Virus record (IMG/VR): IMGVR_UViG_3300043313_000563
Coordinates: 1 to 23,170 of that record
Strand: one strand, 5' to 3'
DNA from: a virus
DNA: 23,170 nucleotides
The notes beneath the pieces are model-generated. The model worked only from the letters and a program-made list of their open reading frames with translations. It was not told where the DNA came from and ran no database searches. Made by a program: the position numbers and the translations under genes. The stretch's first letter is position 1, and each line of letters starts with the position of its first letter. Positions 526-23,170 of this stretch are shown here, one piece after another.

Positions 526-601
526 GGGTGCATATATGCACCCTAATCAAGCGTGGATCAGGGTGCATATGTGCATCCTCCCTAGGTGCATATGTGATCC
601 C
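526..601. promoter_or_regulatory. Three GGTGCATAT-type palindromic repeats (operators or iterons)
   Basis: Three 18-bp copies: 526-543 is a perfect palindrome (GGGTGCATATATGCACCC), 561-578 is a near copy, and 584-601 keeps the left half and degenerates on the right. They lie between the last early gene (ends 666) and the HNH/terminase late operon (starts 424), in a 241-bp non-coding interval. The motif was not found elsewhere in the window. Position and dyad symmetry fit binding sites for a dimeric regulator of the late operon, or origin iterons. Which one is inference. Confidence 0.6.
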
Positions 602-642
602 TAATCCACAGATGGGCCGAGGGTTATCCACAGTCTGTGGAT
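601..642. promoter_or_regulatory. DnaA-box-like sites with inverted repeat
   Basis: TTATCCACAG at 624-633 contains a perfect match to the bacterial DnaA box TTATCCACA. It overlaps an inverted repeat, ATCCACAG (626-633) against CTGTGGAT (635-642). A third half-site, AATCCACAG, lies at 603-611. These sit beside the palindromic repeats in the same non-coding interval, so the region is the best origin candidate in the window. The sites could equally be operators; only the motif matches are seen. Confidence 0.45.
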
Positions 643-1768: not shown

Positions 1769-2246
1769 TCAAATCTCTCCAATCGTGCAAAGCGGATTGC
1801 GGCACCCAATGGGTAGCCGCTCGGTAATGGCGGCGCCTTATGGGAAATGTCTTGGCCTCGGCGGCCGTCATCCACCCGGCTATATGGAGCCCGTGTGGCG
1901 GTAAGCCGATGATGAGCACGCAAACCCAATGATCCGGCGTATCGGCGGGCACCAATAGGTGACCGCTTTTCCCTATGGTCGATTTACCCTCATAATCGGT
2001 GCCTTTGTGGCTCACATCTGGCCCACCGTGGCCGGTTATGGCTGGCCAAATTCTCGAGCCCAACGCCCGCGCTAGATAAACCTCACCGAAATAGGCCAGG
2101 ATATCGTTTGCTTGTTTCTGCTCATGGGTGCGGCGGTATTCGTTGCCATCGTGCCAGCCTTTATCTTTGGCGTAATGGCGCCGCTTATATCCGCCGATGG
2201 CGCACGTTAGCGATTCATCTAGGGTGAGCCGTACGTTAATCGTCAC
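1725..2246 (-). CDS. Putative PD-(D/E)XK nuclease-like protein
   Basis: About 173 residues from a GTG at 2246, which overlaps the RecT stop by 11 nt; an ATG at 2270 is an alternative. The open frame extends upstream to 2351 but that part overlaps RecT. The middle shows a nuclease-like layout: GEVYLARALG (Glu), GGPDV (Asp), then DYEGKST (E-x-K-like), followed by HGLHIAGWMTAAEAK, a GW(I/M)..A.EAK motif seen after the core in several phage nuclease-fold proteins. It sits between RecT and the resolvase-like gene. The nuclease assignment is by motif pattern only and could be wrong. Confidence 0.5.
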   Translation of the reverse strand: MTINVRLTLDESLTCAIGGYKRRHYAKDKGWHDGNEYRRTHEQKQANDILAYFGEVYLARALGSRIWPAITGHGGPDVSHKGTDYEGKSTIGKSGHLLVPADTPDHWVCVLIIGLPPHGLHIAGWMTAAEAKTFPIRRRHYRAATHWVPQSALHDWRDLNARTQDRDSQMLDL

Positions 2247-3342
2247 GCTCTGATTCCGGCCGTGTGTCATAAATCTTGAATCGGATATCGGGCATGGCTT
2301 CCTCATCTGCTTCGAATGTGAGCGTTCCGTTAGCGAAACGGCCGAGCACATCTAGCACCCTTAGGCCTTCCGCACGGGTCAATTCTTTAGAGGTAGCGAT
2401 ATCCCGGCCGAGGATGGCCGATAGGAGCGCGTGCCTTTCCTCGGCCGTGGCCACGGTGCCCAATTCCCGCGTCAGGCCCGCTTGCAAGGCCCGCATGGGC
2501 GCGGCGCCCAAGGGTGGCGGCCCGCTCCCGGCTGGCACTTCCGGGGGTGCCTCGGGAGCGGGCCTCTCCGGCTCCGGCGTGGGAGAGGGAGCCGGAGGCT
2601 CGGCCTCCGGGTGGAGAATATGCGGCGGAGGTAGCGGCACATCTACGTAGCGCGGCCTCTCCGGGCCTGTAGGCGGCTCGGCGGCCTCCGGTGCCACGGG
2701 AGCCGCGTCAGGCTCTCTAGCGGCCGCCCGTGGCTTCCTCTGTAGCGCCTTGCGTGGCTTGGGCTCCGGCGCCGCTTCCTCCGGCGCACCCCATACGGCC
2801 GCGTCAGGCTCGGCGCCATCCTCGGCCACATATCCAAGGCCTTTGATTACGTCAGGGAAGAGCATCCGAGCCAAATCACCCGTGGCGCGTGCCGTGAGCA
2901 TGGCGCGCGGGTATGTCTGCCAATTCTTGCGGCCCAAGAGGCCAGCGGCCCGCGCTTGGTCGATAGTCCATTCAATGTGTAGCCGCTCGGATTCCGGGCG
3001 GCCCGCACGGATGCCAGAGACCCGGCACCGCGTACCCGTGGCCTCATGCACGGAGAGGGAATGGCCTGCCTTATAGATAAGCGCCCGCATTAACTCCGCC
3101 GAGGGAGCCGGGCGGCCGTCCACAATATGCATGCCCTGTAAGGCTTGCATAGGCGTTACGCCAATCTCCAACCCATAAAGGATTAGCGCGGTGACGGCCT
3201 CCCGGCGCCCACGGAGCGGCGCGGGCACGAATTCGGTATCCGAGACCGCTAGCGAAACCTTATCGGCAAATACCAATGCGTCACCCCATGCACCAACGTC
3301 TAGCACGGGCGCGTTAGGTTCGATAACGGCCAATTCGCTCAC
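2236..3342 (-). CDS. recT: RecT-like single-strand annealing protein
   Basis: 368 residues. Residues about 30-190 match the RecT/Bet-type annealase layout: TALILYGLEIGVTPMQALQG, then MHIVDGRPAPSAELMRALIYKAGH, and NWQTYPRAMLTARATGDLARMLFPDVI. RecT proteins bind single-stranded DNA and drive strand annealing, usually paired with an exonuclease; the Cas4/RecB-like gene at 4065-4853 is the likely partner. Residues about 200-290 are a long Ala/Pro/Glu-rich low-complexity linker, followed by a small helical C-terminal domain, LTRELGTVATAEERHALL onward, unusual for RecT. The GTG start at 3342 overlaps the upstream stop (GTGA), so it is translationally coupled. Confidence 0.8.
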   Translation of the reverse strand: MSELAVIEPNAPVLDVGAWGDALVFADKVSLAVSDTEFVPAPLRGRREAVTALILYGLEIGVTPMQALQGMHIVDGRPAPSAELMRALIYKAGHSLSVHEATGTRCRVSGIRAGRPESERLHIEWTIDQARAAGLLGRKNWQTYPRAMLTARATGDLARMLFPDVIKGLGYVAEDGAEPDAAVWGAPEEAAPEPKPRKALQRKPRAAAREPDAAPVAPEAAEPPTGPERPRYVDVPLPPPHILHPEAEPPAPSPTPEPERPAPEAPPEVPAGSGPPPLGAAPMRALQAGLTRELGTVATAEERHALLSAILGRDIATSKELTRAEGLRVLDVLGRFANGTLTFEADEEAMPDIRFKIYDTRPESERDD

Positions 3343-3715: not shown

Positions 3716-4065
3716 TCGGCGGCCGCCGTATCCCTCGGATCAAACGGTGATTGGCTGACGGCCGCGCGGATATCCTCACGCGCGGCCGCCGCGTCATAGT
3801 CACCCGGCTCCGGCTCCGGCGTGCTGGCGGCGCCTAGGGAGGCGTCACAGTCAAAGAAAGCGCGCGGCCGCTCGGCCCATCCGCCGATATCAGCGCTCGG
3901 CGCCTCGGTCCATGAGGCGTGGCAGACACATACGGCGTTGCCTTCCTTGGTTGTGTATTCCTTATTTCCCTTGGCCGCGTATGCCTTGGCCTTGGCCTCC
4001 GTTTTATGGGTGCGCGCGTGGCCGCAATCCGCCACGGTGCATTGGGGCCATTGATATGCCTTCAC
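3712..4065 (-). CDS. Hypothetical protein with possible zinc knuckle
   Basis: 117 residues from a GTG in a TAGTG overlap with the nuclease gene. The N-terminal half has CTVADCGHARTHK, then VCVCHASW, four Cys plus His that could bind zinc. The C-terminal half is acidic and rich in Pro, Asp and Ala. It lies between the Cas4-like nuclease and RecT and is probably an accessory of that set. Function not recognised. Confidence 0.6.
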   Translation of the reverse strand: MKAYQWPQCTVADCGHARTHKTEAKAKAYAAKGNKEYTTKEGNAVCVCHASWTEAPSADIGGWAERPRAFFDCDASLGAASTPEPEPGDYDAAAAREDIRAAVSQSPFDPRDTAAAE

Positions 4066-4853
4066 TATGCAATCCTTTCCGGGAGAGGTAGAGCGGCCCC
4101 GATTAAATCCTCACGCCGGAGGCCCGCCCATTTGGCTACTTCGATAGCGTGCCGGAAGGCGCGCCACATCTCTTCATCAATCCGCACGGGCACTAATTCC
4201 CACCCATCCGGCCGCACCCATAGCGCGGCGCCGCGCGCAATTGGGCGCATCGTCATATCGCGGTCACCGATTTGCACATGCGTAGCGCGGCTATATGCGG
4301 TCAATTGCAAAGCCGTTTCCGGCCACACGCCGGAGGCGCCGGTTTTGTAATCAATCATCCAATATTCGTTACGGCGCATCATGGCGCACAAATCGAATTT
4401 GCCCGCGTAACGCAATTCCTCATGGAATACGGCACACTCCACCAAGGCAGTATCCGGGCCGATATCCCACGCATCCATAAAGCGCGCTACTTGCTCACCC
4501 ATCCGGATAACGTCATCCGGATAAGGCTCTTTAGTGTCCGGGTCATAACTCTCCACCGGCTCACCGAAAATAAGGCGCTCGGCTATGGAATGGACCAACG
4601 TGCCAGCGGCGGCCGAGGCGTCTCGCACGCGGTCACTAGCGGCCGAGGCCTCCCTAATCCATGAGGCCTCACCCATCACGGGCAGGCTCTCAACGTTGGC
4701 GGCCGCCCATAGCGCGGCCTCCCTAGCGGACCATTTGAGTAGGCCCGGCTTTCCGATGGCCTTCCCGATGATGCCCGTAACGCTCGGCACCCTTTCGCCA
4801 TCTAGCGAATAGGTGTGGAATCGGCCGGTGCCCACAACCAAGCGGGAGCCCAT
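4065..4853 (-). CDS. Cas4/RecB-type PD-(D/E)XK exonuclease
   Basis: 262 residues. Core motifs in order: AGTLVHSIAERL with H88 and E92, VECAVF (E139), YAGKFDLCAMM (D154), WMIDYKTG (D168 and K170), and ALQLTAY (Q183 onward). This is the H-x-D-(D/E)xK-QxxxY pattern of the RecB/Cas4 nuclease family. The Cys residues of Cas4 iron-sulphur clusters are not evident. In phages such genes pair with RecT to resect DNA ends for annealing, and the RecT-like gene is about 700 bp downstream. The start is set by a TGATG overlap with the upstream gene. Confidence 0.85.
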   Translation of the reverse strand: MGSRLVVGTGRFHTYSLDGERVPSVTGIIGKAIGKPGLLKWSAREAALWAAANVESLPVMGEASWIREASAASDRVRDASAAAGTLVHSIAERLIFGEPVESYDPDTKEPYPDDVIRMGEQVARFMDAWDIGPDTALVECAVFHEELRYAGKFDLCAMMRRNEYWMIDYKTGASGVWPETALQLTAYSRATHVQIGDRDMTMRPIARGAALWVRPDGWELVPVRIDEEMWRAFRHAIEVAKWAGLRREDLIGAALPLPERIA

Positions 4854-5158
4854 CAGCGCACGCCTTCCGAGGCCTCGGTTTCCTCCGGCGTGGCCACGAT
4901 TCCGAGCGGCCCGCCTGCCTTAAAATCCGGCACATCGATATGAGGCCTTACTGTCATCATTTCGATAACCTCGGCCAATTGCTCATCCGACATAAAGTAA
5001 CGGCCGCCCACCCGGAGATGAGGCCAGATATTGCGGCGGCAATTCTCGCGCACCTTAATCCGGCCGGTGTGCAATTTCGGCGCAATCTCATCCACGGAGT
5101 AATAGCGCACCGTGATTGGATTTCCGTCAGGGTCGAGAGATGGAAAAAGGGTAGGCAA
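4853..5158 (-). CDS. Excisionase-like / MerR-type DNA-binding protein
   Basis: 101 residues if started at the TTG at 5158, which has GGGAGGA seven bases upstream, the best ribosome site nearby. The frame stays open to 5506 but the extra part lacks a good start and overlaps a plus-strand gene. The segment YYSVDEIAPKLHTGRIKVRENCRRNIWPHLRVGGRYFMSDEQL has the shape of helix-turn-helix proteins of the excisionase/MerR-like fold: a helix, a turn, then the WPHLRVGGRYF wing. It is the first gene of the leftward early operon and might act as recombination directionality factor or early regulator. Both roles are inference. Confidence 0.6.
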   Translation of the reverse strand: MPTLFPSLDPDGNPITVRYYSVDEIAPKLHTGRIKVRENCRRNIWPHLRVGGRYFMSDEQLAEVIEMMTVRPHIDVPDFKAGGPLGIVATPEETEASEGVR

Positions 5159-5438
5159 AGCCGTTTCCTCCCGTGAGATATGGCCCACCGCGCGGTTATC
5201 GATTCCCGAGGCACACGCGGCTATTGGCCATATGTCTACGCGCGGCCGCTGGCCCGTGGCAAGGCCCACGGGATCAGCCTCCCGGCCAATCTCGGCCCGG
5301 AGCGCCCGCCAGAGGCCTACGGGCGCACGTACGCCACACGCGCCACACCGAGAGGCCAGGAAGCGTGACGGGAGCGGCGCTCCGGCGTTATGGTCAGGCG
5401 CGTATGACACACCTACCCGCTCGGAGGAAAGGAAGCGC
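5159..5438. promoter_or_regulatory. Divergent control region between leftward early and rightward genes
   Basis: The leftward early operon begins at 5158 and a well-supported rightward gene begins at 5439, so promoters for both should lie here. I see no convincing -10/-35 pair on either strand. A tentative plus-strand ORF (5180-5368) occupies most of the interval. GGAGGAAAGGA at 5422-5432 is the ribosome site of the 5439 gene. Confidence 0.4.
5180..5368 (+). CDS. Possible small basic protein
   Basis: 62 residues, rich in Arg, Tyr and Gly (GTRGYWPYVYARPLARGKAH), ending QEA. The amino acid composition and GC-rich third positions look like coding sequence. Against it: a stop lies directly upstream of the ATG, the ribosome site is poor (only GTGAG), and the leftward operon start is just 21 bp away, leaving little space for promoters. 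It may be an authentic leaderless gene or chance. No family recognised. Confidence 0.35.
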   Translation: MAHRAVIDSRGTRGYWPYVYARPLARGKAHGISLPANLGPERPPEAYGRTYATRATPRGQEA

Positions 5439-5783
5439 ATGCCTCGCAAGGAAGCGCCAGAATCGCTAGAGGCCTTTGTGGATGGCCTGTCTGACCGCGT
5501 GCTCACATGCCGGGAGTTGGGTCACCATTGGCGCCCGCTCACGGTCACTTGGGAGCGGGAGGCGCGCGCCTACCATCGTCAGATGCGGTGCCCATCGTGC
5601 CGCACCGTGCGTACGCAAATCCTCACGGAGCACGGGCACGTCATCTCCAACGGCTACCGCTATCCGGATGGCTACCTAGCCGGAAATTTGACCGAGCGCG
5701 TCAGCCGTGACGCCTTCCGCATGGCGGCCGTTCAACGCTTCCTAGCGGCGGCCGATTCTTCCAAAAGAGTGACGGCCGCGTGA
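5439..5783 (+). CDS. Small phage zinc-binding protein
   Basis: 114 residues with a strong ribosome site (GGAGGAAAGGA) 6 bases before the ATG. It carries LTCRELGHHW, then QMRCPSCRTVR, then GYRYPDGYLAG. This Cys-His and C-x2-C pattern followed by a Tyr-rich YRYPxGYL segment is recurrent in uncharacterised actinophage and actinobacterial mobile-element proteins. It is one of the few rightward genes and its stop overlaps the next gene, so the two are coupled. Biochemical role unknown; nucleic-acid binding is plausible. Confidence 0.75.
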   Translation: MPRKEAPESLEAFVDGLSDRVLTCRELGHHWRPLTVTWEREARAYHRQMRCPSCRTVRTQILTEHGHVISNGYRYPDGYLAGNLTERVSRDAFRMAAVQRFLAAADSSKRVTAA

Positions 5784-6313
5784 TGGCCCAAATCATCTCG
5801 GTTGTCTGTGATGTGCCTGACGCGCCGGAGCATCCGGGAGAGCCGTTCCGGGTGTCCGTAGGCGCGCCGGGCCAGCCGGGGCCGGTGCTCATAGTCGATT
5901 TGTGCTCGGAGCACGCCTCTCCGCTCTTGGCCGTATGGGAGGCCATCTCGGAGTTAGGCAGGCCGGAGAATGGGAACGGCGCCGGGCCTCGGAAGGCGCC
6001 CGCCGCTCCCGGCTCGGAGCGCGTGGCGTGCCCGGTGTGCGGCAAGCCGCTTAAGAATCGCGGGAGCATGGGCGCCCATCTCCGAGGCCAGCACGGCGTA
6101 ACCATCTCGGAGGTAGAGAGCGGTAAGAGCAACGCGGTTACGTGCCCGGTGTGCGGCCGCTCTATCGGCTCTCCGCAAGGCCTCGGCCGTCACACCAAAA
6201 CGGCTCACTCCATGACGGTGCCAGAGGCACGCGCGGCGGCCGCGCGGGCGGATGCGCCACCGGCTCCGCGCAAGGCCCGCAAACGGGCCTCTGTGGCCTC
6301 TGGCGAGGCATGA
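5783..6313 (+). CDS. Double C2H2-type zinc-finger protein with Lsr2-like N-terminus
   Basis: 176 residues from the ATG at 5783; a GTG at 5780 overlapping the upstream stop is equally possible. Residues 1-60 (FRVSVGAPGQ, then VLIVDLCSEHASPLL) resemble the short beta-rich dimer region of Lsr2-type proteins. Two zinc fingers follow: C83-x2-C86...H99-x4-H104 and C121-x2-C124...H137-x4-H142, separated by about 17 residues. The tail is basic and Ala-rich. Likely a DNA-binding regulator or nucleoid-like silencer. It is the best candidate for a lysogeny regulator because no classical repressor is visible. Its last 109 bp overlap a convergent minus-strand gene. Confidence 0.7.
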   Translation: MAQIISVVCDVPDAPEHPGEPFRVSVGAPGQPGPVLIVDLCSEHASPLLAVWEAISELGRPENGNGAGPRKAPAAPGSERVACPVCGKPLKNRGSMGAHLRGQHGVTISEVESGKSNAVTCPVCGRSIGSPQGLGRHTKTAHSMTVPEARAAAARADAPPAPRKARKRASVASGEA

Positions 6314-6426
6314 CGGGCGCCGGGCCGGATGATGGCGCGGAGCGTAGCCACGCGCTCCGGCGTGAGCGGCGGCGCATCGGCCAGCATCCGCGCCACCCAC
6401 GCGGCCAGGCGGTCAGTCTCACCCAT
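6205..6426 (-). CDS. Small helical protein of a common actinobacterial type
   Basis: 73 residues. The N-terminus GETDRLAAWVARMLADAPPL followed by TPERVATLRAII is a recognisable short actinobacterial/phage protein pattern ('...APPLTPEQ...L..LL') usually about 40-60 residues long. Here the frame continues as an Ala/Arg-rich tail that overlaps the convergent zinc-finger gene by 109 bp. That tail may be a lost stop codon. No ribosome site stands out. Function unknown. Confidence 0.55.
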   Translation of the reverse strand: MGETDRLAAWVARMLADAPPLTPERVATLRAIIRPGARHASPEATEARLRALRGAGGASARAAAARASGTVME

Positions 6427-6689
6427 GCCCGCATGATGAGACGGGCGGCCCGGTGGGATCAATCCGGGCCGCCGCGCCCACCGGCACCCTACGCGGCCCG
6501 GCGTGGCGCGGCCGGTGCGGTTATGCCGGTGCCTAACGCTCACCCTGATTTGTCTCCGGAGGCCTTTGGGATGCCAATTTTAATCCCCGTGCGCCTTTAG
6601 GCCATCTCATCCGGTGGACAAAAAAAGAAAGGCCGCCCGGCTTGGAAACCGGGCGGCCTTTCGCTATTCCCCCATAGCGCGCGTGGGCG
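6427..6689. other. Intergenic region downstream of integrase, possible attP
   Basis: 263 bp with no well-supported gene. A plus-strand frame from 6433 (or 6523) to 6600 ends in PEAFGMPILIPVRL but has no ribosome site. The interval holds the terminator at 6628-6661. Serine-integrase attP sites normally lie next to the integrase; the 5' side is closed by an ATGA overlap, so this region is the likelier place. I cannot define the core dinucleotide. Confidence 0.35.
6628..6661 (-). terminator. Intrinsic terminator of the integrase operon
   Basis: Perfect 13-bp stem AAAGGCCGCCCGG / CCGGGCGGCCTTT with an 8-base loop. Read leftward from the integrase it is followed by CTTTTTTTG, a U-rich tract, so it should stop integrase transcripts. 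It could act weakly in the rightward direction as well. Confidence 0.85.
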
Positions 6690-8165
6690 CTATCGCCAGA
6701 CAATCACCAAATCCCGCGCCGGATCAAATGGCCGGTTACTCCGGCCGGAGCCACGGAGCACGACAGAGGCTAGGTGATCGATAACCGCGCGCCGCGTGTG
6801 AAGGCTGGCGGCCTCCCACGCCTCGGCCGCACCGGCTCCGGTCATTCCCTTTAGCACGCGCTCCGGGCGCCGCTCCGCCTCGGCCGCCAGCGCCAGCGCC
6901 GCGCGGGCCTTGGCCTCGGCCCGGCCGATGGCGGCTAGGCGCCGTTGGTAATCGGCCTCATCCGTCACGGAGCCATCCGCCCACGCATCCTCTAGCGCCT
7001 CCCTACGGCCGCCAATGGCGTCTAGCGTGGCTTGGGCCTCCCGCGTGGCGTCTAGTGCCGCCGTGTCTGTGAAAGCGCCGGAGGCGTCGATTTGGGAGAG
7101 CCGCCCAACCATGAGCGCGGTAATGGCCTCATCCACGGGCGCTAGCGCGCGTTGGACGTGCCGCCCGGTGGAGCACTTATAAGAGGCAGGGTTACCGCGC
7201 TTGGTCACGGGCACGCCACGGAGCGGAGCACCGCACCCGGCGCACATGCCGAGGCCAGCCAAGAGATAAACGCGGGCGCTAGTGAAACTCTTACGGCGCC
7301 CGCTCTCGGCCAATTTGGCCTTAATGGCCTCATGGGTTTCCACGGAGATAATGGCGGGCCAATCACCCGGCCCAACGTCTACGCCTTGGTGAATACGGCG
7401 CGCGGCCAGATGAGGCCCGGCCAGGAATTTACCCATATTCGGCCCGGCCCATTGGCCACCGCCCGGCGTAGCGATTCCCTCATCACGGAGCCATTTAGCG
7501 AGAGAGTAAAGGGTTTCACCCGTGAGGAAGCGGTCAGCCAACTCCCGGATAATGCGCGCCTCTTGCTTGTTAATCTTGCGCATTCCCTTTTTGTAACCGA
7601 AACGCCTCCGGCCGCCGTGCGGCATTCCCGCTTTAGCCGCGTCAGCCTTAGACGCCAATTGCCTCATGCTCATCTTGGCCGCCTCATATTCGGCTTGGCT
7701 CCCATCGTCACGCGCCCGCTTAACGTCATCCGGATTCCATGGGTCGATCCGTGAGCCGGTGGCGGTTTGGTAGATAACGGCGCCGCCTTCCCGGCACGCC
7801 TTTAGCAATAGGGAAACGTCATCCGCCTGACGTAAAGAGCGGTCTAGGAGCATGACATAAACGTGAGTGAATTGGCCGGAAGCAACCGCCTCTAGGAAGG
7901 CGGGCCAATTGGTGCGCTCTTTAGCCGCAAACTCCGAGGCGCTTTCTCCCTCATCCGTGAAATGGGTAACCGGCCCGGCGCCGTGCTCGGCGCTCATAGC
8001 CTCGGCATCATTGGCCTGACGTTTAACGCCACGGGTCACGCCATAACCGGCTTTCTCTCCCTTGGTAATGGAGAGTTTCGAGACGCGGTTATAGGCCACG
8101 GCGGCAAACGGCCGCGCCGCTCCCGATTGGGAACGGCGCGGCCGGTTAAGGGTTGCGGTGCTCAT
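6690..8165 (-). CDS. int: Large serine recombinase (integrase)
   Basis: 491 residues, normal for the family. The resolvase domain starts VAYNRVS with the nucleophile S29, and has MLLDRSLRQADD in place of the more usual DRLSR-type loop. The recombinase domain runs from about residue 190 (GGRRRFGYKKG) through NKQEARIIRELADRFL and a TPGGGQW segment. A zinc ribbon follows: MCAGCGAPL and SYKCSTGRHVQ. A predicted coiled coil spans about 380-450 and precedes the C-terminal basic end. It catalyses attP x attB integration. The start overlaps the upstream gene by ATGA; the stop is followed by the terminator at 6628-6661. It makes the phage temperate. Confidence 0.95.
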   Translation of the reverse strand: MSTATLNRPRRSQSGAARPFAAVAYNRVSKLSITKGEKAGYGVTRGVKRQANDAEAMSAEHGAGPVTHFTDEGESASEFAAKERTNWPAFLEAVASGQFTHVYVMLLDRSLRQADDVSLLLKACREGGAVIYQTATGSRIDPWNPDDVKRARDDGSQAEYEAAKMSMRQLASKADAAKAGMPHGGRRRFGYKKGMRKINKQEARIIRELADRFLTGETLYSLAKWLRDEGIATPGGGQWAGPNMGKFLAGPHLAARRIHQGVDVGPGDWPAIISVETHEAIKAKLAESGRRKSFTSARVYLLAGLGMCAGCGAPLRGVPVTKRGNPASYKCSTGRHVQRALAPVDEAITALMVGRLSQIDASGAFTDTAALDATREAQATLDAIGGRREALEDAWADGSVTDEADYQRRLAAIGRAEAKARAALALAAEAERRPERVLKGMTGAGAAEAWEAASLHTRRAVIDHLASVVLRGSGRSNRPFDPARDLVIVWR

Positions 8166-8855: not shown

Positions 8856-8915
8856 GGTGGCTGATCCCTCGGCCTCGGTGCCTCCCTTGGTGGGCGGCGC
8901 GTAGCGCCAGCCTAA

Positions 8916-8963
8916 CACACCTACTAGTGTGCTCCGCCTCGGCGGAACATACCTCTAGGTGTG
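8916..8963. promoter_or_regulatory. Paired operator-like dyads upstream of the integrase operon
   Basis: Two related 16-bp imperfect dyads: CACACCTACTAGTGTG at 8916-8931 and CATACCTCTAGGTGTG at 8948-8963. Their centres are 32 bp apart, about three helical turns, and a GC palindrome TCCGCC-TC-GGCGGA lies between. Location just 5' of the first integrase-operon gene suggests cooperative regulator sites. No clear promoter hexamers are seen. Confidence 0.5.
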
Positions 8964-8965
8964 AC

Positions 8966-9003
8966 AGGCCCGCCTAGGCGTGAGAGGCGGCCTAGGCGGG
9001 CCT
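8966..9003. terminator. 14-bp perfect inverted repeat, possible terminator
   Basis: AGGCCCGCCTAGGC (8966-8979) and GCCTAGGCGGGCCT (8990-9003) are perfect inverted copies with a 10-base loop. It starts about 10 bases after the last lysis-module gene (stop 9013 in the leftward direction). No U-tract follows in either direction, so it may be a rho-independent-like stop of weak form, an RNA-processing hairpin or a protein site. Confidence 0.5.
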
Positions 9004-9220: not shown

Positions 9221-9369
9221 CGGCCGTCATCCTCCCGGCGCCGCCGTGGCCGTGGCTTCCGGCTAAGGGATAGGGAGATTGTGTATCCACGGAGCATGGC
9301 CACGATAAGCGCCAGCGTCACGGGCGCCGAGATGATGAGCAAGATTGCTAGCGCCTCTTGGGCGGTCAC
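9217..9369 (-). CDS. Holin-like small membrane protein
   Basis: 50 residues from a GTG that overlaps the upstream stop (GTGA). Short N-terminus (MTAQEA), one transmembrane segment of about 20 residues (LAILLIISAPVTLALIVAML), then a strongly basic tail (SRKPRPRRRRED). That is the layout of single-span phage holins with a positive cytoplasmic tail. It lies downstream of the lysin gene in the same operon. Holin is inference from topology and place. Confidence 0.6.
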   Translation of the reverse strand: MTAQEALAILLIISAPVTLALIVAMLRGYTISLSLSRKPRPRRRREDDGR

Positions 9370-9551
9370 CCGGCGCCGCCGTACGGATTAACGCCTTGCC
9401 ATGGGCGGGCGCCTAACTCCGTGCGGATGGCCTCGGCGGCCGCGTCTGCCTCGGCTTCCTCCGGCGTGCCACGGTGCCGGAGCGTGAGGCTTACTAAGAC
9501 GCGCTCTAGGAGCACGCGGCTAGATGAGAGCGGAGGTAGGTCAAGAGTCAT
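9366..9551 (-). CDS. Small hypothetical protein
   Basis: 61 residues from the ATG at 9551, which overlaps the end of the nuclease-fold gene by 11 nt. N-terminal helix with SSSRVLLERVLVSLTLRHRG, then an Ala/Glu-rich helix (PEEAEADAAAEAIRTELG) and a short Pro/Gly end. No motif recognised. Probably part of the lysis operon by its overlaps on both sides. Confidence 0.6.
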   Translation of the reverse strand: MTLDLPPLSSSRVLLERVLVSLTLRHRGTPEEAEADAAAEAIRTELGARPWQGVNPYGGAG

Positions 9552-10266
9552 AGAGCACCGCCGTAAATAGGAAAGCGTCATAATGGTCGGATTTCATTTC
9601 CACCCCATCCACGCTATGCAAATAGCGGGCATCTTTTCCGCATTTAACCGAGCCGCCTCGGCCCACCGCGTTATCGATTTGGGCGCCGATGCTTTCCCCA
9701 TCAATCCGGTTACAGAGCATTTCCGGGCCAGGCCCATCCTCATTAGGCCCACGGTTGCTATCCCACAAAACCACACGGGCCTGATCCTTAGCGGCCGCCT
9801 TATCCGCCTCGGTGCGGTCATCCCAATCTTCCCGCGTCCATGGCGCCATGCGGGCGGTTAGTTTATCGATGCCTTCCATTTGCGCGGCTTGCGTGTTATC
9901 GGTGCCTTTAGGCGGTTGGTGCGCAACCCAAACCATGAGGCGGCCCGCGCGGAATTCAAGAATAGAGCGCGGCTCATGCGTGCCGGTTGTCTCCGTGCGT
10001 GACCATGTTTCTTTTAAGTCATGCCATTTCTTATCCGATAGGTCTAGGTTTTGTTTCACATAAGCCGCAATATTGGCCCGGCTCTTATTAGAGCGGTCAC
10101 GGATCACGCGGTAATCATCCGGACACGGCAAGTCATATCCGATGGTTTCGCATAAGCCGAGCACGGCCGGGCGCCTAGCCAAGAGCGCGCGGATTTCCTT
10201 ATCGACCCGGTTAGGGTCTCGGTTCACTTGCACGTTATAGAACGCAAGCGGGAATTCGCGCGCCAT
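9541..10266 (-). CDS. Endonuclease/exonuclease/phosphatase-fold protein
   Basis: 241 residues from the ATG at 10266, two bases after the lysin stop. Motifs of the EEP superfamily appear in order: FYNVQVNR (Asn), GLCETIGY (catalytic Glu, E40), VWVAHQPP (His), LWDSNRGP (Asp-Asn), QIDNAVGR, and near the end KSDHYDAFLF (Asp-His). All metal and catalytic positions look intact. EEP proteins cut DNA, RNA or phosphoesters; the substrate here is unknown. Its place between the lysin and holin-like genes is unusual. The gene is more AT-rich than the tail genes. Confidence 0.75.
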   Translation of the reverse strand: MAREFPLAFYNVQVNRDPNRVDKEIRALLARRPAVLGLCETIGYDLPCPDDYRVIRDRSNKSRANIAAYVKQNLDLSDKKWHDLKETWSRTETTGTHEPRSILEFRAGRLMVWVAHQPPKGTDNTQAAQMEGIDKLTARMAPWTREDWDDRTEADKAAAKDQARVVLWDSNRGPNEDGPGPEMLCNRIDGESIGAQIDNAVGRGGSVKCGKDARYLHSVDGVEMKSDHYDAFLFTAVLYDS

Positions 10267-10268
10267 GA

Positions 10269-10841
10269 TTAGGCCTTGGCTACTCTCTGCCAAGTCTCCC
10301 GGATTATCTGCCGGGTGGATTTCTTTTCATCCTGCCCGCTCGGCTTGGTAACGGTTGTCTCTTCATTCCAAACCTTATCGACCAATGCCGGATTATTCTT
10401 GGTGACTTCCTCGGCAACAATGGTCCGTAGTTTCTTCCAATCCTCACTAGTCATTTCATCCTCACCTAACGGTAAATCGACGCCGTTTAAATCCTCGGCC
10501 CAACCCAAATAGGTTTGGCCCCAATTCCTCACCGGCCAATCGATATCATCTTCCGAGACATTCCCGGAGGATGGCATATCCGTGCCGCGCATATCGTTAG
10601 GCTCTTCCGTGTTAATCACGATATGGCCATATTTCCCGCCAGAATAAAATAGCGGTGCTCCGGTGGGCGCGCTCCTATCTCCCGGATGCCGATTAACGGC
10701 GCCGTGCCAGGCGTCGATAGCGGATGCATAAACTCCGCCGATTCTCCATGACTCCCGCACGAATTTAAGGCAATAGCCGGGCGGATATGTTTTGACCGCG
10801 CGGGCATTGGCCAGCGCCTCACTACCGCTATCGGCCGTCAT
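10269..10841 (-). CDS. CHAP/NlpC-like cysteine peptidase or amidase, probable lysin
   Basis: 190 residues. A Cys-His hydrolase core: YPPGYCLKFVRESW with C24 at the head of a helix, then AIDAWHGA, APLFYSGG and KYGHIVIN with H73. This is the Cys...GH(I/V) layout of papain-fold cell-wall hydrolases (CHAP, NlpC/P60) used as actinophage lysin domains. A linker (residues 80-125) and a Glu/Lys-rich helical C-terminal part follow; no classical cell-wall binding repeat is recognised. Overlap with the upstream stop (ATGA). Cuts peptidoglycan for lysis, or for entry if tail-associated; lysis is preferred from its neighbours. Confidence 0.75.
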   Translation of the reverse strand: MTADSGSEALANARAVKTYPPGYCLKFVRESWRIGGVYASAIDAWHGAVNRHPGDRSAPTGAPLFYSGGKYGHIVINTEEPNDMRGTDMPSSGNVSEDDIDWPVRNWGQTYLGWAEDLNGVDLPLGEDEMTSEDWKKLRTIVAEEVTKNNPALVDKVWNEETTVTKPSGQDEKKSTRQIIRETWQRVAKA

Positions 10842-11017
10842 ATCAGCCTCTCTTTAATCCGCAAGAGAGCGCGGCCTAGCGCGTCCACCGCCCGGCGCTT
10901 ATCAGCCTTAGACCTATCCGGATCATTGAATATTTCACGGAGGCGGAGCACGGCGGCCGCCAGCGCCTCATAATCCGGTGGGTCATCTTGGATGGCTGGC
11001 CTAGGCGTCTCTCTCAT
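10838..11017 (-). CDS. Small helical hypothetical protein
   Basis: 59 residues from the ATG at 11017, which lies inside the end of the acidic gene (17-nt overlap). Two helices, YEALAAAVLRLREIF and DKRRAVDALGRALLRIKERL, charged and amphipathic. Its stop overlaps the lysin start (ATGA), so it is coupled to lysin. Function unknown. Confidence 0.6.
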   Translation of the reverse strand: MRETPRPAIQDDPPDYEALAAAVLRLREIFNDPDRSKADKRRAVDALGRALLRIKERLI

Positions 11018-11210
11018 CTTCCTTGGCCTCATCCTCGGTGGGCGCCTCCGGCTCCCTATCGGCCGTGTCAGCCTCTAGCGCTTCCTCGGTGGGCGCCGGT
11101 GCCTCCGTGGCCTCGGCGGGCCGCGTAACGGTCTCTGTGGCTTCCTTGCGCACGGTCTCGGTCTCTTCCCGGCGCTCTTCCTCACGCGGGTCTGTAGGCG
11201 TCTCGGTCAT
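11001..11210 (-). CDS. Highly acidic Glu/Thr/Ala-rich small protein
   Basis: 69 residues, about a third acidic, low complexity (EEERREETETVR, EATETVTRPAEA, EDEAKEDERDA). Start at 11210 has GGAG upstream and follows the previous stop by two bases. Such acidic low-complexity proteins near the tail and lysis genes have no known function; disorder is expected. Confidence 0.6.
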   Translation of the reverse strand: MTETPTDPREEERREETETVRKEATETVTRPAEATEAPAPTEEALEADTADREPEAPTEDEAKEDERDA

Positions 11211-11212
11211 AT

Positions 11213-11479
11213 CTACTCCATTCCTTGCACTTGACTAAGGATCATTCCGTCAGTAATCACGGCTTCATCGGCGCCGGGATCAAATGTTGGGTCATCCGGG
11301 TGAGAGGCGCGGGCCGATTCCCATGCGTCATCCCATCCGGGAGCGGAGGCCCAATTGCGCCGATTGTTATAGGCCCAAGACTCTCCGTTATCTCCCTTTC
11401 CCTCTTCCGTGGCCGCCTGTGAAACGCGGTTAATCATGCTTCCGTTATTGGCAATCTCGGATTGCGTGAGGTATGACAT
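11213..11479 (-). CDS. Small conserved tail-module protein
   Basis: 88 residues from the ATG at 11479 with GGGAG upstream. MSYLTQSEIANNGSMINRVS is followed by NGESWAYNNRRNWASAPGWD and TDGMILSQVQGME. The same kind of 80-90 residue protein is typical just after the receptor-end tail genes in actinophages. Role unknown. A longer upstream frame exists but overlaps the tail gene and lacks a ribosome site. Confidence 0.65.
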   Translation of the reverse strand: MSYLTQSEIANNGSMINRVSQAATEEGKGDNGESWAYNNRRNWASAPGWDDAWESARASHPDDPTFDPGADEAVITDGMILSQVQGME

Positions 11480-12010: not shown

Positions 12011-12763
12011 CTATCCCCAAACCGTGTTTGGAGTAAAGAGGGTGCCTATTGGTGTGGCTGGCCAGGCGCCGGAGGCCTTTGGCCCAAACATTTTCCCGCT
12101 GGCGATATCTAGATAAACGGCGCCATCCGTGCCGGTGCCCGCCGTGGGCGCTCCGGAGCCGCTAAGAAACGTGCCAGCACCGCTTACGCCTTGCGGGCCT
12201 TGGATGCCTTGCGGGCCTTGGGCTCCGGTGGCTCCCGTATCTCCCTTAACGCCTTGGGCTCCCGTGTTTCCGGTCAGGCCTATCGGGCCTTGCGGGCCGG
12301 TTGGGCCGGTTAGGCCTATCGGGCCTTGGGCACCCGTAGCGCCAGCCGCGCCAGCCGCTCCCGTGTCTCCCTTGGGGCCTTGGGCACCCGTGGCGCCGGG
12401 CGTGCCCGGATCACCCTTGGCGCCGGTTGCTCCGGGCGTGCCGGGTATGCCTTGGGCTCCGGTTAGGCCCGTGTCGCCTTTAAGGCCTTGCGGGCCGGTT
12501 GGGCCAGCCGGGCCGGTGGCTCCGGGCGCTCCCGTAGGCCCGGCCGCTCCCGTGGCGCCAGCGGCGCCCGTGTCGCCTTTAACGCCTTGGGCGCCCGTGT
12601 CTCCCTTAACGCCTTGCGGGCCGGGCGCTCCGGCCGCTCCGGGCGTGCCAGCGGCTCCGGGTGGGCCGGTGGCGCCAGCCGGGCCGGGTGGGCCTGACGG
12701 GCCAACGGCGCCCGTGTCTCCCTCGGTCTCGCGCGGCCTCGGCTTGGGCAGAGAAAGCGGCAT
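12011..12763 (-). CDS. Collagen-like tail fibre protein
   Basis: 250 residues from the ATG in a TAATG overlap. Residues 1-14 are a short basic/Pro head. Residues 15-194 are about 60 uninterrupted Gly-X-Y triplets, rich in GDT, GAT, GPQ and GVKGDT, which should form a collagen-type trimer. Residues 195-250 ([19 protein letters not shown], then [11 protein letters not shown]) match the trimer-nucleating/end domain common on phage collagen-like tails. The corresponding DNA is a repetitive GC-rich tract. Likely a flexible, tail-attached fibre stem. Confidence 0.85.
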
Positions 12764-14058
12764 TAGATAACCGCCTGATCCCATTGGAGCACGGGTGAAA
12801 TGGTGTCCCAACGGTCGGAAGCGGGAACGTCATTCCACCGGCCGAGGCTCGGCGGCGGGCCAAAGCACGCGGCCTGATTCCAATTACCCGGAGCCTGATC
12901 CCAAAGCACCGTGGGCGCTACGTCATCCCATCGTGGCGGCGGGCTAGTACGGCAGTAATCGCTAACCGTTAATTCGATTTCATGGACACCCCACGCTAGG
13001 CGCTCCGTCCACCCTTCCACCCATGCGGCTATGGCGTTAGGCGTTGGGCCGGTGCTAGGAAGGCCCGTTACCCGCAAGAGCCCGTGCATATCCAAGGCCA
13101 AAAGCGCTTGGCTATCGGCCAGGCTCATGCCGCCCACATCGATAGGGAGCGCGGCCAGCATCCACACCGGATAAGAGTTTTGGGCCAGGATCAGATAGGC
13201 GGTCTCTTGGGCATCCTCTAGCGTGGCCAATTCGGTAGTGACCGAATACTCATAAATGCCAAACCGGGTGACGCTATCCGGCGCCTCGGCGTAAAGGCTC
13301 GGCCGCTCCGTGCTCTCTCCCTCGGCCGGTGCCTCCGGCTTGACTCCATAAACCATGGAAATCTGATTAACCAAACCGGAGATATTGCGCACCCATGAGG
13401 GAGTGACCAAGATATCGCACGCATCTAATTCCATATCGACGGGCGCATTCCGCCGATGCTCGGCATCCGCGTAACGGATATCTCCGGCCCGTGTCTCCCA
13501 AATGAGGCCGCCCGCGCTATTGGCCGTGTCCGTGGCTACCTCTAGCGCGGCCCGCCTATCGATATCACGCGGCACGATTTCCACCGTGCCCGGATCAGAA
13601 TGGGCCGGGTCTAGCGTGAGGCCCGCTAAGGCGAATACGCGCGCCACGCGGGCGCCGTCCAACTCTTGCGGGAATGGCTCATCCCCAATTACCCGGCGTG
13701 TGTAATCGGCCAGCGTGCTCACGGCCACAATCTGACCGATACCCGCGTCAGGCGTATTAGGCCCGGCGTCATCCCACCCAATAGACAAATCTGTGACCCG
13801 GCCCGTAAAGCGGCGGTAAGCGGTGCCGCCTAGGTGGGTGTCAATAATGATCCAAGCGCCGATATCCACCATGGCTGGCATGGGCGCGCCCGGCCCCACG
13901 GTTACGTCTAGCGTTACGGAGGAAGGCTCCGGCTGATTAGCCGTGTCCGTGCGGCCGTGAGAGATGGCCACGGAGTCACATAAGCAAGAGATATCTACGG
14001 GCGTGCCCGTGGGCGTTTCCCTATCCTCATAGGCCAAAACCGTATGGGCGCCAATCAT
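12763..14058 (-). CDS. Minor tail protein (baseplate hub-like)
   Basis: 431 residues, coupled to the tape measure stop by ATGA. It is the size and position of actinophage minor tail proteins. The N-terminus has [17 protein letters not shown], close to TATPIDISCLVNNAVIS in the major tail protein, suggesting a shared tube-like domain. A Trp-rich C-terminal segment (about 370-430) repeats [28 protein letters not shown] and [10 protein letters not shown]. Probably forms the tail tip below the tape measure. Confidence 0.8.
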
Positions 14059-16658
14059 CCGGCCAACCCCATCCGCCTATCGTGCCCGGCCAGAATGCGC
14101 CTAATCTGGCGCGCCGTGGCCTCCGGATCAATGGCGCCGTTAACGATGATGGTAGGCCCGGTGCTCACGGCTCGGCCGCTGGCCATAGCGCGCGGATTGG
14201 CTACCGCTGGCGCCGCCGTGGCTCCCGTTGGGAAAGCCAAAAGACTTCCGCCATCGTCTCCGCCTCCGCCTCCGCCTCCGCCTCCGGTGGCTCCCTTAAT
14301 CGCCTTTTTAATGGCCTTTTTAAGAGCCTTGGCCAGATTCTTTGCCAGCGTCTCGGCCCATTCATCTAGGTTTTCCTGCTTAATCTCTAGGCCATCCACG
14401 ATGGCTTGGGCGCCTTGCTCTCCGGCCGCATAAAGCGCCGTGGCGGTATTGGTGCCCAAGGCGGCCGCCGAGGCCTCTAGCGCCGTCTGTAGCGCGTTAG
14501 CCTCGGTAATGGCGGCCGTGCCTCCATCGGCCAGGCCTTGCGCGATAGCCGTGCCGCCTTCCACGCCAGCGGCCGCAATATCCCGGAGCGCGCCTTGCGA
14601 AAGGCCAGCGCCCGCCAATTGCTCCATGAGCGCTTGGAAATGTTGCGTGGCCTCTACCCGCTTCCGCATATCGGCCAGAATGCCCGTGGCGGTTGTGTCT
14701 TCCTTATCGGCCAGATTGGTAATGGCACCAAAGGCGGCCGCCGCATTGGTAATACCCTCGGCATAGGCCTTGCGCTCATCTTGGATGGCGGTTAGCGCCT
14801 CCCGCGCGTCAGCCAAATCCTTATAGACCTTTTGCCTCTTCCGGGCATTCTTTTCTAGCGCCTCGGTCTCATCCGAGGCGGCCTTAATCACGGCTTGGCT
14901 GGCCGTGCGCGCTTTCTTATCGCTCTTGAATTTCTTTTCCATGGTGGCCGATACGGTTTCGGCCACGGCCTCCGAGATGGCCTTAATTCCGGCTAGGCCA
15001 TCTTCCATTCCCTTTGATAGACCGCCCATAACGTCTTTACCAATGGCGGCCATAACCTTAGATGGCGAGGAAATACCGAGGCGCTTTTTAACCCAACCGG
15101 GAATCTTATCGGCCAGCGCTTGCACTTCACCGGCAATAGCGCCCGCCATAGACTTAATGCCGTTAATGAGGCCGCGGATGATATCGGCGCCCACATTGAA
15201 TAGCCAAGATGAGGCGTTACCGATAAGGCCTTGGATTTTGGTGCCGAGGGAACGGAATACCGCCCAAACCTCATCAATCTTGGAGCGGATGCCGGATAGC
15301 ACATTAGAGACAATGGCGGTCAGGCCATCGATAATGGCGCCAACGTTCCTAACCGCGTTATCCCACCGGGTCTCTAGGAAATCGGTTATGTCCGTGATAA
15401 AGCCACGGATAGCGCCCACGGCGGTATCCCACGCATCCGAGACCTTTTTAATCACGCTCTTTACGGCCGCAACCGTATTACTCCATGCGGTCTCTATCCA
15501 CCCGGTTACGGCCGACACGGCCGAGCGGATGGCGCTAACGGCGGAATCCCAAGCGTTAGGCACGAATTTAATAACGGCCTTAACCGCGTTAACGGCGCCT
15601 TCCCACACGGTCACTAGGAAACGCGCCACGGCGCCGATTACCGTTTTAATGCCAGCAAAGGCCGCGTCTACTCCGGCCCGGAACCAACCTACTTTGTTAT
15701 AAAGCAATACAAAGATGGCGATAACGGCCACGATGGCCACAACCCAAATAAGGAAGGCGGCCGAGAGGGTAACGCCGAGCGCGGCCGTAATGGTCAGCGC
15801 CACATTCATAACCACGATAACGGCGGCCAGCGCCGCAATTAGCCCGATAATGATTTGGGTTGTGGTTGTGTGCTTTTCCATAAAGCCGAATAGGTCACCT
15901 AGCGCGGCCGTCACTACCGTGAGCACGGGTAAGAGCACGGCGCCTAGGGAGGCTTGCATATTCTCCATTTGGGCGGCCGTGCGTTGGCTCTGCCCGGCCG
16001 CCGTATCGGCTTCCCGTGCAAAGGCGCCGTGAGCATCGGCGGTTTGCTCCGTGACCAAGGCCAAGAGCGCGGCGGTTTTGGCTTGCTTGGCCGCCTTTCC
16101 CTCTAGTTTATCGGTGCCATCGGCGGCCATCCGGGCCGCAATATCGGCTTGCTTGACCGCTACGCCGTACTTTTCGATTGGGTCCGTTTCGCCACGGAGC
16201 GCGCTAGATAGTGCCTCCACCGCCTCTTTAGCGGAGCCGCCGAATTGGGCCGACAAATCAGCGCCGGTGGAAATGAGACCCTTGGTTTGCTTGGCTACCT
16301 CTTTCATGGGCAGGCCAGAGTTTTTCAATTGGGCGCCTAGGACGGTGGCCAATTCCTCATATTCGGATGAGGCCAGGCCCACGCTATCGGCCGAGGATTT
16401 GGCCCATTTATGAACGGCATCCGCGCTCTTGCCAAATACGGCATCCACGCCTCCCATGGCTTGCTGCGCACGGGAGGCGGCATCCACGGAGGCGGCACCA
16501 AAGGCCGCAATAGCGGCCGTGGCGGCGGCGGCCGGGAGCGCCGCTTTACCGAGGCCTTTTCGCATCTTGCCAGCGGAGTCATCCACGCCTTTAAGGCCAG
16601 CGGCGGCGGCGGCCGTATCCGCTATTACCTTAATCCGTAGGACGGCTTCACTTGCCAC
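14055..16658 (-). CDS. Tape measure protein
   Basis: 867 residues, by far the longest gene, directly after the chaperone. GTG start inside the preceding frame. N-terminal domain (about 1-220) is the helical phage minor-tail/TMP domain (AFGAASVDAASRAQQAMGGV and DAVFGKSADAVHKW). About 225-310 has strong hydrophobic helices (VVTAALGDLFGFM, IIIGLIAALAAVIVVMNVA). A middle region repeats WDSAVSAIRS / WSNTVAAVKS / WDTAVGAIRG modules, about 35 residues each, then GISSPSKVMAAIG. A poly-Gly stretch lies near residue 795. It sets tail length and passes DNA or pore functions at entry. At roughly 1.5 Å per residue a tail near 130 nm is expected. Confidence 0.95.
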   Translation of the reverse strand: MASEAVLRIKVIADTAAAAAGLKGVDDSAGKMRKGLGKAALPAAAATAAIAAFGAASVDAASRAQQAMGGVDAVFGKSADAVHKWAKSSADSVGLASSEYEELATVLGAQLKNSGLPMKEVAKQTKGLISTGADLSAQFGGSAKEAVEALSSALRGETDPIEKYGVAVKQADIAARMAADGTDKLEGKAAKQAKTAALLALVTEQTADAHGAFAREADTAAGQSQRTAAQMENMQASLGAVLLPVLTVVTAALGDLFGFMEKHTTTTQIIIGLIAALAAVIVVMNVALTITAALGVTLSAAFLIWVVAIVAVIAIFVLLYNKVGWFRAGVDAAFAGIKTVIGAVARFLVTVWEGAVNAVKAVIKFVPNAWDSAVSAIRSAVSAVTGWIETAWSNTVAAVKSVIKKVSDAWDTAVGAIRGFITDITDFLETRWDNAVRNVGAIIDGLTAIVSNVLSGIRSKIDEVWAVFRSLGTKIQGLIGNASSWLFNVGADIIRGLINGIKSMAGAIAGEVQALADKIPGWVKKRLGISSPSKVMAAIGKDVMGGLSKGMEDGLAGIKAISEAVAETVSATMEKKFKSDKKARTASQAVIKAASDETEALEKNARKRQKVYKDLADAREALTAIQDERKAYAEGITNAAAAFGAITNLADKEDTTATGILADMRKRVEATQHFQALMEQLAGAGLSQGALRDIAAAGVEGGTAIAQGLADGGTAAITEANALQTALEASAAALGTNTATALYAAGEQGAQAIVDGLEIKQENLDEWAETLAKNLAKALKKAIKKAIKGATGGGGGGGGGDDGGSLLAFPTGATAAPAVANPRAMASGRAVSTGPTIIVNGAIDPEATARQIRRILAGHDRRMGLAG
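14258..14286 (-). repeat. Hexanucleotide repeat in the tape measure gene
   Basis: CTCCGC repeats four times plus a partial copy. It codes for nine glycines near the TMP C-terminus. Gain or loss of a unit would keep the frame and only change the linker length. Confidence 0.6.
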
Positions 16659-21876: not shown

Positions 21877-23170
21877 TTAATAGACGTAGAAATCTAGCGG
21901 CTTTTCGGAAGGCGTGGCCGCATCCGCCAGCGCCCACGCGGCCGCATGGAGCAAATCGGCCCGGATGCCTTTATGCGCTTGGGTCAGGCCACCGGAGGCG
22001 GTTGGCGATAGCGCTACGGCCGTGGCTTGCTTGGTCAAATCCTCATCACCGGAATGTGCCACGCGCCCGGCTCTCACTAGGGAGCGGAAGAGCGGGAAAG
22101 CGGAAGCATTGATATCGGGCGTGACCCGTTGGATATCGGCACGCGGGCACCAAGCCTTAGCCTCGGTGACCGGGAGCGTGCGGCCAAGAGTCATCCGGCA
22201 ATTGGGCCGCTGGCCAATGGTGAAAGAGGCCCACGCAAACGCATCCGGCACGCTATCGAATGACCCACCCCAAATGAGCACCCGGCCATCCGGGAGATGG
22301 CACGCGGCCGCGCCCGCCGCCTTTAGGCCAAGGAAATCCGACACGGCCACCGAGAGCGGCACGCCATCGGGAGGCGCCGCGTAAAGGTCACCAAGCCGCG
22401 CCCAATGGTCAGGATCAGTCAAAGGCTCGGTGGCCGTGTTATCCACAATCGCACGCGGCCGCCAGACGTTGAGATATTGGCTCTTAAAGCCTTCCACCGG
22501 GTCATCTTCCAACGGGTCATCCGAGCGGCCATAAGCGCGCTTGGCCTTGGTGCTGATGAGCCTTTCCCGGCCCGGCGTCCAATGCGGGCTAGCCGCCTTC
22601 CATGCGGCCGGGTCATCAATATCCGCGTCTCGCATAGCGGACCATTCAAGCAAGAGGCTTCCGGAAGGCGCTTCCCAATCCGCCAGCACGGCGGCCCGCC
22701 GTACGGGCACCAAAGGCGAGGCGTAACGGTGCGCCGTCGAGAATAAAACCAATTGGCCATATTCCTGCTCCGCTAGCGTTGGTTCAATTCCCTCTTCCAC
22801 AATACGCGGCTCTACCGCCCAAGCCTCATCAATCAATGCCAGCGTGGATGCATAACCGTAGGTGGCGCTCTTAGCGCGGATCAGCCATCTATCGCCACCC
22901 GGCGCCATGATTTCCTCATGGCCGTTTTGCTCACGGGCGCTCCACCCATTCTCACGCGCCCATTGGCGGGCCGGGCGTTGAATCTCCCGCGCAATATCCA
23001 AACCCTTAGCCGTGTGCAAAACCAATTGCTCACAATTGCCATAAAGGGAACGGGCCTCCGGCGTGATCCGCCATAAAGCCAACTCCCGGAGCGCCACCGA
23101 TTTACCAACCTGCCTAGCCGTCGATAAAAGCGCCTCTATCCACACCATATGGCCGTCAGAGTCATGCTCT
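21877..23170 (-). CDS. Terminase large subunit, 5' end cut by window edge
   Basis: The frame is open through base 23170, so the true N-terminus is missing. From the first internal Met (23148): Walker A is STARQVGKS (residues 9-17), Walker B is LALIDEAW (D107-E108), and the coupling motif is LVLFSTAHR. The nuclease half has SVAVSDFLGLKAAG with its metal Asp and DLLHAAAWALADAA near the end. Packages DNA into proheads using ATP and cuts concatemers. About 60-100 N-terminal residues would be expected before Walker A and lie outside the window. The small subunit is not seen. Confidence 0.95.
   Translation of the reverse strand, partial: EHDSDGHMVWIEALLSTARQVGKSVALRELALWRITPEARSLYGNCEQLVLHTAKGLDIAREIQRPARQWARENGWSAREQNGHEEIMAPGGDRWLIRAKSATYGYASTLALIDEAWAVEPRIVEEGIEPTLAEQEYGQLVLFSTAHRYASPLVPVRRAAVLADWEAPSGSLLLEWSAMRDADIDDPAAWKAASPHWTPGRERLISTKAKRAYGRSDDPLEDDPVEGFKSQYLNVWRPRAIVDNTATEPLTDPDHWARLGDLYAAPPDGVPLSVAVSDFLGLKAAGAAACHLPDGRVLIWGGSFDSVPDAFAWASFTIGQRPNCRMTLGRTLPVTEAKAWCPRADIQRVTPDINASAFPLFRSLVRAGRVAHSGDEDLTKQATAVALSPTASGGLTQAHKGIRADLLHAAAWALADAATPSEKPLDFYVY

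Follow-up and report, generated by a model that had tools for sequence, protein, structure and literature searches.

The locus studied here raises the question of what two genes do that run against all their neighbours, between a phage integrase and the early operon, in a region where no classical repressor is apparent. The window, by which we mean the whole stretch of DNA analysed, is an IMG/VR virus record of 23,170 bases. The initial annotation had described a lone rightward island at this place, encoding a C-x2-C protein and a protein that combines an Lsr2-like region with two C2H2 fingers, and had proposed a non-classical lysogeny or silencing system. The layout is borne out by our analysis: orfA and orfB are two plus-strand genes with a serine integrase on one side and an operon of excisionase-like, Cas4-exonuclease and RecT genes on the other (Table 1), and all other window genes with mapped homologues lie on the minus strand. 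The orfA stop and the orfB start overlap as TGATG, and the two genes are translationally coupled. The start given earlier for the island, 5180, takes in the orfA leader, which makes up most of 5180-5438. A 62-aa ORF within this leader (5180-5368) is no more than a possible gene, with a single weak match at the corresponding place in L005 (42% over 31 aa, E 0.058). The window gave no Rfam match and no tRNA.

Table 1. Features of the orfA/orfB island and of its surroundings in the window.
Feature	Position	Strand	Remarks
orfA	5439..5783	+	114 aa, ATG start; predicted zinc beta-ribbon protein, phrog_4480
orfB	5783..6313	+	176 aa; Lsr2-type dimerisation domain and two C2H2 fingers (predicted)
orfB residues 1-63, Lsr2-type dimerisation (treble-clef-like) domain	5783..5971	+	ligand positions C9, P12, C41, H44
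orfB C2H2 finger 1, residues 83-104	6029..6094	+	
orfB C2H2 finger 2, residues 121-142	6143..6208	+	QGLGxH helix
Candidate orfA promoter	5365..5394	+	GTGACG, 18 nt, TATGGT; by eye
orfA ribosome binding site	5423..5427	+	GGAGG; from sequence
Excisionase-like HTH protein, divergent to orfA/orfB	4853..5188	-	exact start uncertain; phrog_1840 E 1.3e-6; HTH_17 only 12.5 bits
Small convergent gene, overlaps the 3' end of orfB	6205..6429	-	same place in several relatives; phrog_21301 E 0.0011
Serine integrase	6690..8165	-	phrog_95 E 4.5e-59; PF00239 and PF07508 above cut-off
Terminator hairpin, integrase/orfB interval	6627..6662	-	
Cas4-like exonuclease, early operon	4065..4853	-	phrog_298 E 1.6e-37; matches annotated Cas4/exonuclease
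RecT-like annealing protein, early operon	2236..3342	-	phrog_4171 E 2.5e-40

A search with an orfA alignment yielded 26 viral loci, three of which (L005, L012 and L019) share their contigs with L004, L002 and L003. An orfB gene was found downstream in 21 of the 26, overlapping the orfA stop or within 4 bp of it. orfA stands alone in L026, L027 and L028, contig L030 ends inside orfA, and L029 ends inside a gene that is similar to the beginning of orfB (profile E 4.2e-4). The recurrence of the reversed pair in 21 of 26 loci is more than chance. Together with the window, the 21 viral contigs give 22 pairs, and each of the 22 runs opposite to all XIS, EXO, RecT and integrase genes that were mapped in its locus. 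The integrase is of the serine type and located beyond orfB in 17 genomes, and of the tyrosine type and located beyond orfA in five (L007, L008, L009, L010 and L019; for the first two, the type was read from the sequence by eye). In the 22 phage genomes the pair thus always sits in the predicted lysogeny module. As it is kept with serine and tyrosine integrases alike, we rejected the possibility that it encodes an integrase-tied directionality factor.

Outside this set, the arrangement is different. Relatives of orfA that lack orfB occur in forward operons in phages GMA6, ReqiDocB7 and P3.1 and in L028, where orfA is on the EXO strand. A diverged pair, adjacent and in the same order, is present on the Streptomyces violaceusniger plasmid pSTRVI02 (L060 18035-18847; orfA E 2.5e-9, orfB E 1.7e-18), with a single finger in orfB, as judged by eye. 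This pair shares its strand with the upstream neighbours, and an ERF-family gene precedes it at a distance of about 2.1 kb; a peptidoglycan-recognition gene is found about 16 kb off, and the plasmid is possibly a phage-plasmid. Window orfB matched none of 50,697 phage records, and the orfB proteins of L011 and L024 matched two and one of them, respectively, by the zinc-finger part only. Single-protein scans of the viral contig collection with window orfA and orfB gave no match, and neither did scans of genome contigs in which the queries were the orfA alignment and an alignment of four integrases.

With regard to orfB, an AlphaFold2 model built from 22 sequences (pLDDT 86.6, pTM 0.42) comprises an N-domain of two strands and a helix, followed by a linker and two finger units. 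Almost all Foldseek matches listed for this model are zinc-finger chains, and none reaches E <= 0.001. When 523 of the matched chains were compared by VIA-align, Lsr2 of M. tuberculosis (4e1p_B) came first with Z 5.2 and rmsd 3.2, a score that is middling by the tool's own scale, on which Z < 8 is not decisive alone. The alignment covers 56 of 56 target residues and residues 2-63 of the model, and the next row, a zinc finger, has Z 4.0. The profile comparison points the same way. Alignment of the 22 orfB N-domains with 12 Lsr2 domains by hhalign gave Prob 79.5 and score 28.4, and in our profile script the real pair scored 28.9 against a null maximum of 15.6, with 0 of 400 column shuffles (200 each side) as good, and against 7.5 to 11.8 for the controls A1, A4, A5 and reversed A8. 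The L011 homologue matched PF11774 with E 5.5e-6 and 26.3 bits, under the cut-off of 29.6, and phrog_1223 'Lsr2-like' with E 6.9e-6; 1 of 22 members passed phrog_1223 at E 0.001, and the window's own orfB gave no match to the PF11774 model. We consider the Lsr2-type dimerisation domain of orfB to be real at the level of modelled fold and profile. The AT-hook-like DNA-binding domain that forms the C-terminal half of Lsr2 is absent from orfB. As two C2H2 fingers make up that half, we have not filed orfB as an Lsr2 member.

The fingers of window orfB score above the Pfam cut-offs in two stretches (zf-C2H2_4, 33.8 bits against 27; zf-C2H2, 31.5 against 25.2), and orfB contains the C2H2 unit that was sought, defined as C-x2-C-x12-H-x3-5-H with a score above the family cut-off. 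The earlier description of the protein therefore agrees with the structural match, the profile comparison and the finger models. At E <= 1, zf-C2H2 was matched by 21 of 22 members and zf-C2H2_6 by 17; two finger motifs were found in 21 members and one in L015. In most of them, finger 2 carries a QGLGxH-like helix, which we take to resemble the plant QALGGH motif. No HTH model appeared in the best 25 of the 59 Pfam families matched by orfB, nor in the table for orfA, and the ROS_MUCR model gave 18.6 bits on orfB, under its cut-off of 25.4.

The N-domain also bears potential zinc ligands, with the pattern C-D-x-[CH] ... D-L-C-x2-[CH] across the family. The second ligand is cysteine or histidine in 21 of 22 members for the first pair and in 19 for the second, and in 18 for both. 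In window orfB, P12 replaces the second ligand of the first pair, so that one zinc ligand is lost. Kaur and Subramanian 2016 place Lsr2 4E1P among the treble clefs with zinc-less solved homologues (PMC4999995). As most orfB members have kept the ligands, the phage N-domain seems to be a version of the same fold that chelates zinc. The direction of zinc gain or loss between the phage domain and Lsr2 is something we infer.

orfA is a member of phrog_4480, a family of small actinophage proteins (E 4e-13; 25 of 25 members match). Unlike the window pair, the known members in GMA6, ReqiDocB7 and P3.1 occur without orfB. The protein contains C24-x4-H29 and the annotated C-x2-C as C51-x2-C54, within the pattern CRELGHxW ... 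CPxCRTxR. Its model has a pLDDT of 71.6, and the top Foldseek matches are WRKY domains (6j4f_B, E 4.5e-3); in the test of a WRKY/GCM1 zinc fold, the VIA score of Z 5.9 was tied with unrelated beta-sheets. Both orfA and orfB are expected to bind zinc.

Among known systems, orfB is alike to the DNA-bridging proteins Lsr2 and CgpS in the predicted fold and profile of its N-terminal dimerisation domain, but it differs from them in three respects: C2H2 fingers replace the AT-hook-like C-terminal domain, most members retain the zinc ligands that Lsr2 has lost, and the window leader is GC-rich. Phage Lsr2-like proteins sometimes lie near lysogeny genes, as in Streptomyces phages Verse and Legacy, where they are close to the serine integrase. 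They were present in 482 of 50,697 phage records, and have been reported for 354 of 2951 phage genomes (PMC8612146). Given that such proteins are common in phages, the kind is known, whereas the C2H2 fusion is new within the material searched: no described precedent for a fusion of an Lsr2 domain with C2H2 fingers was found in the literature and collections searched, and a term search in the available text of PMC8612146 found 'zinc' 0 times. The alpha-proteobacterial H-NS-like silencers Ros/MucR combine an oligomerisation domain with a zinc-finger DNA-binding domain (PMC9779718), an architecture like that predicted for orfB. Nevertheless, their N-domain is different, orfB has two classical C2H2 fingers, and the relatives are those of an actinophage, not of alpha-proteobacteria; the likeness is one of analogy, not membership. 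With CI-like HTH_3 repressors, the pair shares genomic position and reverse orientation, but the HTH_3 domain is absent from orfA and orfB.

The initial annotation had seen no CI-like repressor, and had left room for one in the missing part of the genome. PF01381 (HTH_3) matched nothing in the window, and in Pfam searches with twenty window proteins the excisionase-like neighbour was the sole regulatory HTH hint at the island, although a repressor of another fold might escape such models. Weak winged-helix and replication-initiation matches were found at 666-989. The window is also nearly complete. Contig L004, whose terminase is 73% identical to that of the window over 423 residues, is continuous from a region like window base 92 to a region like window base 23,169, and its own ends, about 0.1 kb apart, fall at window 16,425-16,545. 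The two records are therefore permutations of one circular map, each short of one small piece. By extrapolation of L004 to base 1, the window lacks about 0.3 kb, which lies inside a fused HNH-terminase ORF. In L004, this gene is a 667-aa ORF (9272-11275) in which an HNH endonuclease is fused in frame to the large terminase; its parts in the window are 1-454 and 21877-23148, with the gap between them.

The relatives give a more complex picture. We searched 24 records for PF01381, of which 21 have orfB and three have orfA only; ten matched at E <= 0.001, all of them bearing orfB, and six of the 24 scored above the cut-off. A CI-like HTH gene accompanies the pair in 6 of 22 genomes. In L015, L018, L020, L022 and L023 it is located between XIS and orfA, directly upstream and on the strand of orfA, and the L020 protein matches phrog_12831 'transcriptional repressor' (E 4.9e-6). 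In L008, a plus-strand HTH gene and a divergent HTH gene lie beyond the integrase, farther from the pair. The matches of L007 and L024 are on the other strand, that of L024 on the excisionase-like ORF, and those of L017 and L021 are several kb away. In 12 of 22 genomes, the window and 11 contigs, no HTH_3 match was found; two of these are nearly complete and several contigs are fragments. As a CI-like gene is present in six pair genomes, the pair does not simply stand in for CI. Judged by its sequence, the region is a lysogeny control region. The proposed non-classical lysogeny or silencing system is thus in keeping with the position in the lysogeny module, the reversal, the domains and the absence of HTH_3 from the window, but a simple replacement of CI is not upheld, as classical repressors coexist with the pair in 6 of 22 genomes.

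With regard to the control DNA, the candidate orfA promoter was not recovered by a consensus promoter scan, the consensus being of the E. coli type; by eye, TAnnnT boxes like TATGGT precede orfA in relatives. A hairpin and a separate TAnnnT box were also seen by eye between the HTH gene and orfA in L020, L022, L023 and L018, which suggests that the pair may be a separate unit. The orfA leader (5190-5438) has 69% GC against 62% for the window, without the drop in GC described for CgpS targets (PMC7002338), and an Lsr2-like AT-reading mode is therefore not suggested. In 11 of 22 loci the word GACACGCC precedes orfA, against a control mean of 0.6. It ranked first among the 8-mers when related sequences were searched exhaustively, and the orfA leader of the window lacks it, so we treat it as no more than a hint. 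An excess of exact GACACG sites before orfA is seen mainly in L013, L014 and L016, where the 300 bp of divergent control region contain five to six such words, some about 10 bp apart; these arrays are candidate operators of an oligomeric regulator.

Two distant sites, 526-601 and 8916-8963, had been named earlier as possible binding targets. Window 526-642 contains three GGTGCATATRTGCA-type repeats and, after them, DnaA-like boxes that converge (TTATCCACAGTCTGTGGAT), beside a replication-initiator-like gene. The matching place in L004 has other palindromes (CCTGACA...TGTCAGG) and the same DnaA-like boxes, so the segment looks like a replication origin, and we rejected 526-601 as an operator. 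Window 8910-8969, upstream of a small minus-strand gene, holds a 29-nt imperfect inverted repeat with the arms ACACACCTA and TCACACCTA. The second target and the orfA leader have only the common short word ACACACCTA in common, at 5407. With five matches at <=1 mismatch against 1.23 expected, a number reached in 1 of 100 shuffles, this word is too weak a candidate for an operator.

We give about an even chance to the reading that the two genes form an operon of the lysogeny module, with orfB as its main product and a site-specific Lsr2-like silencer. The pair would be made in the prophage from its own promoter. The N-terminal domain of orfB would dimerise or chain the protein, while the two fingers, standing in for the AT-minor-groove domain of Lsr2, would pick specific sites; orfB could then bind along the divergent control region, coating or bridging it, and silence the early operon (the excisionase-like, Cas4-like, RecT and replication genes). 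It would act alone where no CI-like gene exists and jointly with CI where one does, with orfA as a translationally coupled zinc beta-ribbon partner or modulator. The multimerisation, DNA binding, DNA targets and immunity role of orfB are all presumed here from its architecture and position. It is possible, though rather unlikely, that the true repressor is another protein, be it the HTH neighbour that resembles an excisionase, a CI-like protein where one is present or a protein that escaped recognition, and that orfA and orfB modulate the switch in an accessory role, for example through prophage DNA structure or the tuning of integration and excision. The HTH gene divergent to the pair in the window, the HTH_3 gene upstream of orfA in five relatives and farther off in L008, and the hairpin and box that split the two in four of them would fit such a role, but 12 of 22 genomes, two of them nearly complete, have no HTH_3 match, and the pair stays while the integrase type changes.

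The silencing by orfB might instead be directed at host genes or incoming foreign phages, in lysogenic conversion or defence, rather than at the phage's own early operon. Lsr2-like xenogeneic silencers do target horizontally acquired DNA (PMC7002338), and the pair is located in the lysogeny module; however, the strict linkage to the region divergent to the early operon in 22 genomes makes this improbable, and PADLOC gave no match for orfA or orfB, for which reason a defence system was also rejected. Even less probable is a general DNA-management pair that helps replication or recombination and whose reversal is incidental: the forward operons of orfA relatives without orfB and the nearby ERF-family gene on pSTRVI02 would suit it, but where orfB is present in phage contigs, all 22 pairs are reversed. 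Beyond the silencer reading, we entertain tentatively, with more doubt than belief, that orfB represents an undescribed class of lysogeny repressor, in which a zinc-chelating Lsr2-type treble-clef domain is combined with C2H2 fingers whose QGLGxH recognition helix is conserved. Such a repressor would be sequence-programmable, able to replace CI entirely in small temperate actinophages, and would show a zinc-bound state that may be the origin of the zinc-less Lsr2 domain.

Xenogeneic silencers consist of an oligomerisation domain and a DNA reader, and the phage seems to have swapped the AT reader of Lsr2 for C2H2 fingers, which would make a general silencer site-specific. Should this be confirmed, phage repressors would gain a non-HTH kind, lysogeny in small actinophages that have no CI gene would find an explanation, and the Lsr2 dimerisation domain, whose fold has already been argued to be a treble clef minus zinc, would have a relative that chelates zinc.

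Two further observations were made. A small excisionase-like HTH gene lies beside the serine integrases of the window (4853-5188) and of L002, and a different HTH protein is encoded near the tyrosine integrase of L003. As an HTH gene is found near both integrase types, the product of window 4853-5188 may be no excisionase but a Cro-like regulator. Finally, window 12011-12811, in the tail region, encodes a collagen-like protein with G-P-Q/T-G repeats.
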